A DNA stretch of 64,000 nt from Micromonospora sp. MH99. Lineage in GTDB: Bacteria; Actinomycetota; Actinomycetes; Mycobacteriales; Micromonosporaceae. The position numbers were made by a program, and so were the translations under genes. The stretch lies in the NCBI RefSeq assembly GCF_021442385.1, contig NZ_MUZA01000025.1, positions 1-64,000 of the forward strand, read 5' to 3'. Positions 58,291-58,475 of this stretch are shown in pieces (positions within the stretch are counted from its first letter, which is position 1; every line of letters begins with the position of its first letter). The notes beneath the pieces were generated by a model. The model did no database searches, was not told where the DNA came from, and was given only the letters and a program-made list of their open reading frames with translations.

Positions 58291-58338
58291 GAGGTGTCCA
58301 ATTGTCTGATCTGGTCGGGGTAGGCGCGTGGAGGGCGG

Positions 58339-58416
58339 CTACGCCGGACAGATGCCGCTGGCCTGCAGTCGGAGATCGACATACAGGCGAACGGTGAGGC
58401 CCCAGACATTGGTCAT
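58339..58416 (-). CDS. 25-residue leader peptide with cysteine near its end
   Basis: Reads [20 protein letters not shown] then GICPA. The [14 protein letters not shown] ending matches the actinobacterial putative leader peptides (pattern RLxVDLxRxASAxC) that precede sulfur and cysteine genes in Streptomyces and relatives. It has its own promoter (58426-58453) and begins 9 nt after the -10 box, so it is translated from a leaderless end. The symporter ATG is 48 nt past its stop. Expected to slow the ribosome on the late Cys codon when cysteine is low and so alter downstream translation. No clear terminator hairpin lies between, which favours translational rather than transcriptional control. 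Confidence 0.75.
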
Positions 58417-58425
58417 CGCTCGCCG

Positions 58426-58453
58426 ACGATACGCCGATCGGCGCGGTCTGCAA
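58426..58453 (-). promoter_or_regulatory. Promoter of the leader-peptide/symporter unit
   Basis: On the minus strand TTGCAG (58453-58448), 16-bp spacer, TATCGT (58431-58426); the leader ATG follows 9 nt later. Confidence 0.6.
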
Positions 58454-58475
58454 GGCACGATGGCCGTGACGCTCC

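Follow-up and report, generated by a model that had tools for sequence, protein, structure and literature searches.

Cysteine-dependent attenuation by the Cys-rich leaderless ORFs of M. smegmatis is reported in two papers that cite the original work (PMC9031893; PMC13236596), and Seliverstov 2005 (PMC1262725) tentatively suggested that a pyrimidine-rich spacer binds Rho. Here a 64,000-nucleotide stretch of Micromonospora sp. MH99 DNA (the window, referring to the whole stretch analysed) was followed up, in which a short ORF precedes a transporter gene of the glutamate-transporter superfamily. This ORF is probably a leaderless upstream ORF of the actinobacterial cysteine-attenuator type that controls the symporter behind it, itself a probable importer of cystine or a sulfur amino acid. 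The proposal builds on features read from sequence, namely the ORF, its conservation, its selection at the protein level, an invariant UGU at a fixed spacing, its kinship via orthologues to a known leader family, and the sulfur genes that this family accompanies.

The region 58291-58475 constitutes the entire gap between a DUF998 gene (58476-59144) and the symporter, and the minus-strand ORF was found in it as originally predicted, its stop lying 48 nt upstream of the symporter ATG at 58290 (Table 1). The leader ATG is located 9 nt downstream of the end of a −10 box (58432-58426), also as predicted, and, with L022 and L023 left out of the count, GTANNNT stood at this very distance in each of the 43 unique sequences from Micromonosporaceae, none of which carried a Shine-Dalgarno (SD)-like 4-mer before that ATG. 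A −10 element ending 9 nt before the ATG, together with the absent SD, fits a leaderless translation of the leader. Of the separate promoter that had been claimed for the ORF, the −10 element GTATCGT stood with its 43/43 relatives, while the −35 element proved weak: TTGCAG is located 16 nt upstream of TATCGT, no sigma-70 consensus promoter pair was found by scan, and CCTTGC or CCTTCC occurs at roughly the −35 place in many relatives (by eye, uncounted). The leader has a single Cys codon two codons before its stop, so that a Cys run of the Ms5788A type is lacking. The spacer comprises 23 C and 8 G in 48 nt, and the symporter start is preceded by a weak SD at best (TTGGA). Farther out, an Oxidored_FMN gene (old yellow enzyme type, 55850-56920) lies downstream of the symporter and a GST-domain gene (59137-60102) upstream of the DUF998 gene, neighbours that possibly make up a thiol/redox setting.

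Table 1. Positions of the leader, its signals and the symporter within the window.
Feature	Position	Strand	Basis
Leader ORF, 25 codons plus UAG	58339..58416	minus	ORF list, conservation, codon statistics
−10 element GTATCGT (GTANNNT)	58426..58432	minus	Sequence and relatives
Weak −35-like element CCTTGCAG	58448..58455	minus	Sequence; similar element in relatives by eye
Cys23 codon UGU at Asp14+9, candidate regulatory codon	58348..58350	minus	Alignment of relatives
48-nt C-rich spacer from leader to symporter	58291..58338	minus	Sequence
DAACS/SDF symporter, 434 aa	56986..58290	minus	PF00375 355 bits, alignment, motif tables, trees

SDF matches at E ≤0.001 were detected in 127 of the 151 genomes of the genus, distant paralogues included, and the leader was found within 300 nt upstream at each of the 30 best-matching genus loci, the window's own among them. 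Before 80 named orthologous symporters (from Micromonospora, Salinispora, Plantactinospora, Streptomyces, Nonomuraea, Microbispora, Nocardia, Streptoalloteichus and others), the leader motif was present within 300 nt at 67, whereas of 5,454 stretches of 300 nt drawn at random from these loci, 2 contained it. The 13 misses comprised eight divergent ORFs and five loci without a leader, from Solirubrobacter, Kineosphaera, two Pseudonocardia and one Streptomyces. Kitasatospora-like loci (L024, L025, L028, L029, L036, L039, L061 and L080) were seen to carry a divergent ORF with a degenerate VD core and a UGU near the stop. In a class-wide sample, the leader lay within 400 nt before 17 of 22 symporter loci, the window's gene and five phylum-sample orthologues included, and was missing at L142, L143, L239, L244 and L251; in the phylum sample, the leader pattern occurred within 350 nt of three of the five symporter orthologues and was absent at this distance from all 25 SDF genes outside the orthologues (24 loci plus the paralogue in the window's genome). 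Two SDF matches from two genomes of one genus, L148 and L149 (G301 and G279), contain one in-frame TGA each. The original prediction had proposed searching Micromonosporaceae for the ORF and for covariation of its Cys codon, with loss of the ORF from relatives counting against it; instead, the ORF was conserved together with the symporter, and the Cys codon was UGU without variation in all 42 sequences aligned from Micromonosporaceae (42 of 45 were counted, L022, L023 and L105 having escaped the strict ATG pattern).

The codon statistics concur in that single-base codon differences among 35 unique leaders gave a nonsynonymous to synonymous ratio of 0.38 in the leader frame and of 4.17 and 3.73 when read in the alternative frames, and the variable columns fell as 5, 4 and 15 on the first, second and third codon positions; the leader statistics omit L001, L113 and L122, which duplicate the window locus, and the paralogue L002. 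A ratio of 0.38 in frame versus about 4 elsewhere means that the leader frame evolves as a protein. A chance ORF, conceivable since open frames abound in high-G+C genomes and since a longer GTG frame (58339-58623) contains the leader, is contradicted by this conservation and these codon statistics and retains a negligible probability. The leader ORF is real and conserved across actinobacteria.

The peptide had also been predicted to share its pattern with leader peptides that precede sulfur genes in actinobacteria. Against NF042934, a model named 'putative leader peptide' (cis_reg_atten), the window leader scored 13.7 bits, below the cut-off of 27, and 12.1 bits (E 2.15) in the genome scan. 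The symporter leaders of G382, G397, G411 and G443 scored 30.4, 30.4, 29.2 and 29.2 bits and so exceeded the cut-off, making at least four genomes of the 118-genome class sample with passing symporter leaders, and one orthologous symporter leader peptide, scored alone, reached 32.2 bits. As the orthologous leaders pass the model and the window's does not, the kinship is established via the orthologues and not by the model itself. The window leader contains the R-x-[HYA]-V-D-[LFY] core and, close to its stop, a Cys at constant spacing from this core, a criterion read off here and distinct from NF042934's own definition. At E ≤0.001, NF042934 matched 89 of 118 class genomes and none of 14 control genomes; at E ≤10, ten of the 14 control genomes gave matches, none above the cut-off, and the genome-scan match of the window leader falls in this range.

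The same loose threshold (E ≤10) yielded 19 NF042934 matches in the window's own genome, with 150 of 285 candidates scored. By form, i.e. the core motif, a UGU at Asp+9 and a stop soon after, L114, L115, L116, L118 and the window's own L122 were leaders, while L117, L119, L123 and L124 showed no leader by pattern (L120, L121 and L125-L132 were outside this inspection). L114, L115, L116 and L118 lie ahead of genes for a rhodanese, for two ABC binding proteins (SBPs), one of the amino-acid and one of the SsuA-like kind, and for a nitrite/sulfite reductase. The rhodanese leader, with 38.3 bits, was the sole one of the four above the NF042934 cut-off, the other three (26.0, 17.9 and 12.6 bits) being recognised by form; it also scored 63.6 bits against the Ms5788A model NF042933 (cut-off 45), which two peptides before rhodanese genes pass, one of them from this genome. 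The name of this model we take to be that of the ORF of the M. smegmatis polycysteine leaders (Canestrari 2020). The proteins downstream of the own-genome leaders matched their Pfam families above cut-off and no NCBIfam subfamily above its cut-off, and a pattern scan of this genome for near copies of the leader core found the window leader alone. Class-wide, the leader was located within 400 nt before 26 of 30 nitrite/sulfite reductase genes and nine of 30 rhodanese genes, a limit that undercounts, as in G188 the model match lies about 620 nt before the rhodanese gene; two more rhodanese leaders had variant cores (L214 with Asn at Asp+1, L219 with Thr at Asp-2). By these sequence comparisons the leader is related to an established leader-peptide family found ahead of sulfur genes, and that part of the original prediction was borne out by the passing orthologues and by the same-form leaders before rhodanese and nitrite/sulfite reductase genes.

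The leaders were then compared across gene settings by using a pattern with [HYQA][VI]D[LFMIY] fixed and some Cys between Asp+3 and Asp+16. They were taken from the symporter loci, the 30 best class-wide nitrite/sulfite reductase loci, the 30 best rhodanese loci and the two own-genome SBPs, which yielded 83 symporter, 24 reductase, nine rhodanese and two SBP leaders of distinct DNA sequence, many of which are closely related. In all 118 leaders and all four settings, a Cys was found exactly nine residues after the Asp of [H/Y/A]-V-D, as from Asp14 to Cys23 in the window, and its codon was UGU in 118/118. The other 126 Cys codons of the same leaders were 30 UGU versus 96 UGC (Fisher p 3e-41 against the Asp+9 codon, ignoring shared ancestry), with UGU:UGC of 2:50 at Asp+2, 4:20 at Asp+10 and 14:6 at Asp+4. 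In genes of these loci, UGC outnumbered UGU by 83:7 in the window, by 238:23 in the loci of Micromonosporaceae and by 586:44 in the remaining ones, or 10- to 13-fold. UGU was kept across genera and gene families whose other leader codons vary, and L022, with two Cys in a row, has UGU as its Asp+9 codon. Both peptide ends differ in length, and the distances from the Asp+9 Cys to the ATG and to the stop vary. Outside the pattern definition, Arg at Asp-4 was kept in 117/118 leaders, Leu at Asp-7 in 114 and Ser, Thr or Gly at Asp+6 in 116. With a wider pattern, the UGU rule held in 117/118, the exception being a spurious frame at L192 beside a proper leader. At the family-model loci, which partly overlap the other sets, UGU was at Asp+9 in 24 of 25 readable rows, leaders with Cys runs included; the 25th row (L261) is a frame unlike a leader, and four of 29 loci gave no row.

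The fixed UGU and the fixed Asp-Cys spacing suggest nascent-chain-assisted pausing. Under plentiful Cys-tRNA, the ribosome would pass the UGU and end at the UAG two codons on, so that the C-rich spacer would lie bare and symporter synthesis would be poor. When Cys-tRNA is scarce, the leaderlessly initiated ribosome would pause with the UGU in its A site, helped by the nascent R-x-[H/Y]-V-D nine residues back, and this pause would raise symporter expression; we infer that cysteine is the signal and that the output lies at translation initiation or at Rho-dependent termination. With the UGU in the A site, the Asp would be eight residues behind the P-site residue and hence, by this inferred geometry, in the upper exit tunnel. 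The upper exit tunnel is where arrest motifs act, TnaC being a parallel. More tentatively, the whole actinobacterial cysteine-leader family could consist of nascent-chain arrest peptides, in which the pause at UGU and R-x-[H/Y/A]-V-D reads Cys-tRNA or a small sulfur metabolite directly, with the symporter's single-Cys leader as the minimal form; this extension is possible, though less probable than its opposite.

Plain codon-counting attenuation, in which scarcity of Cys-tRNA at the UGU alone matters and the peptide is incidental, would account for the Cys-codon runs of some related leaders upstream of rhodanese genes and for the choice of UGU, which makes up 7 of the window's 90 Cys codons, rare codons being common in attenuators. 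A pure sensor would, however, tolerate indels and need no fixed UGU among UGC neighbours, and neither the nine-residue Asp-Cys spacing in 118/118 nor the Arg at Asp-4 in 117/118 despite variable ends is expected of it, which leaves codon counting rather unlikely. The spacing and codon invariance and the placement of similar leaders ahead of sulfur genes also weigh against an ordinary upstream ORF without regulation that feeds ribosomes to an SD-poor symporter start. Such feeding would suit the 48-nt spacer and the weak TTGGA as the sole signal before the symporter ATG, but the spacer ranges from 27 to 240 nt across loci (counted up to the position matching query residue 1), and this explanation appears very improbable. 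By sequence, the regulatory half of the original prediction is well supported.

Neither an intrinsic terminator nor a match to an Rfam element was found. Pairing of the leader with the spacer did not exceed dinucleotide shuffles, with mean z values of −0.40 (43 leaders) and −0.16 (44 leaders); UGUCCGG/CCGGACA pairs that would mask the symporter start were seen by eye in some Micromonospora, and this masking was rejected as the duplex energies were not beyond shuffles. RNAalifold drew a hairpin within the leader for 43 Micromonosporaceae sequences, a drawing that comes with no null model. Against synonymous shuffles, five Micromonosporaceae gave z values from −2.63 to −0.15, all negative, and ten other loci from −2.09 to +1.87, seven of them positive. 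The hairpin may thus be local to Micromonosporaceae and is not a feature of the leader family. At codon 16 (58369-58371), Arg16 is CGA in 42/42 Micromonosporaceae leaders, CGA being a rare Arg codon (221 of 6,223 counted); this invariant CGA could serve a local hairpin. A classical transcription attenuator was likewise rejected, there being no intrinsic terminator and no alternative hairpins or pairing beyond shuffles. With no terminator, no pairing beyond shuffles, no clade-wide hairpin and no Rfam match, the output step of the attenuator is without support from RNA structure. The Micromonosporaceae sequences after codon 26 contain 928 C and 416 G in 2,152 nt, and a C-rich spacer would fit Rho-dependent termination; given this spacer and the at best weak symporter SD, Rho-dependent termination and start-site control are both candidate output steps.

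The symporter matched PF00375 (DAACS/SDF) with 355 bits (cut-off 27.9) and was 31% identical to E. coli TcyP and 31% to GltP. A motif with a one-residue insertion, GC[A/S]xxYPA, read off from our alignment, was present in 18/18 rows of the symporter's clade (GCAAIYPA in the window) and in 8/8 TcyP-like rows, while the remaining 31 of the 57 rows lacked it. The symporter clade (100/100) was separate from the TcyP clade (100/99) in the first of two trees and lay outside it in the second as well, which rejects membership of the symporter in the TcyP clade. In the SstT-rooted tree, which carries a long-branch warning, the symporter clade grouped with GltP, DctA and GltPh-type rows at 95/92, with TcyP outside; in a second tree, made without SstT, L152, L164 and a Vibrio row and with its root unknown, the symporter clade and TcyP were on one side of a 95/96 branch, a placement warned of as a possible meeting of long branches. 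The trees therefore disagree on the symporter's nearest kin. Of the TcyP-family cystine importer that had been suggested, the GC[A/S]xxYPA motif in common with TcyP is in favour, and the symporter's own clade outside TcyP and the equal identity to TcyP and GltP are against, so that the original interpretation as a whole is partly supported.

At the places of GltPh N310-M311-D312 and D405, located through shared motifs as GltPh itself was outside the alignment, 18/18 clade rows had K-M-D and Q. According to PMC12668577, these four places belong to the sodium sites, and proton-coupled relatives carry M311L and D405N. K310 together with Q405, D312 being kept, agrees with neither of these patterns, the one for sodium or the one known for protons, and a built-in cation may replace sodium in the symporter clade. 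The places of D394 and R397 are kept in the symporter and likewise in TcyP. In GltPh, D394 and R397 bind acidic substrates. Their retention, the equal 31% identities, and a clade outside TcyP that joins GltP/DctA rows at 95/92 in the SstT-rooted tree would agree with a cysteine attenuator whose cargo is aspartate/glutamate, cysteate, sulfocysteine or a dicarboxylate. Yet TcyP too keeps D394 and R397, the insertion motif is common to all eight TcyP-like rows and to none of the 31 outside both groups, omission of the long-branch rows puts the clade and TcyP on the same side of the 95/96 branch, and control by a cysteine leader argues for a sulfur substrate; such another cargo is a serious minority prospect. 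Import of cystine is plausible, and cystine or a related sulfur amino acid would be the most likely substrate.

The locus would link a so far unassigned clade of the glutamate-transporter superfamily with the supply of cysteine, which turns its substrate into a testable guess, and the invariant UGU nine residues after the Asp predicts that codon identity and peptide spacing both matter. If the wider proposal is true, actinobacteria would have a cysteine arrest peptide across several sulfur genes. Among the matches listed from open-licence papers, whose reach excludes Canestrari 2020, no account of the UGU-at-Asp+9 rule was found; those listed on arrest peptides and on UGU codons held nothing on the leader family, and no open-licence paper was found joining leader peptide, cysteine, Streptomyces and sulfite reductase. 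The UGU-at-Asp+9 rule, the symporter as a target gene and the single-Cys minimal form of a known leader family thus appear to be new.

Compared with the known systems, the NF042934 leaders have the same motif and kind of setting as the window leader, and orthologous symporter leaders pass their cut-off, whereas the model name makes no mention of a symporter target and the window copy falls below the cut-off. The Ms5788A family (NF042933) resembles the window leader in its short ORF, xVDxxR core and UGU at Asp+9, but has several Cys, with runs in some members, and a rhodanese target, in place of a single Cys and a symporter. The Cys leaders of cys/cbs operons (Seliverstov 2005, PMC1262725) are likewise short ORFs with Cys codons near the stop and without a conserved terminator hairpin, and differ in their runs of Cys codons and other targets. 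The Rhodobacterales cysS uORFC-8-2 (PMC8632094) is a cysteine uORF read as a ribosome-mediated attenuator, as proposed for the window leader; its Cys codons stand in tandem and are mostly UGC, and it has two stems and an intrinsic terminator, unlike the one UGU here and the terminator that was not found. On the transporter side, E. coli TcyP, a cystine/sulfocysteine symporter, has in common with the window symporter the DAACS family, GCAxxYPA and the lack of a carboxylate at the place of GltPh D405, but it is only 31% identical, belongs to another clade and has G-Q-N at the NMD motif versus K-M-D in the window symporter.
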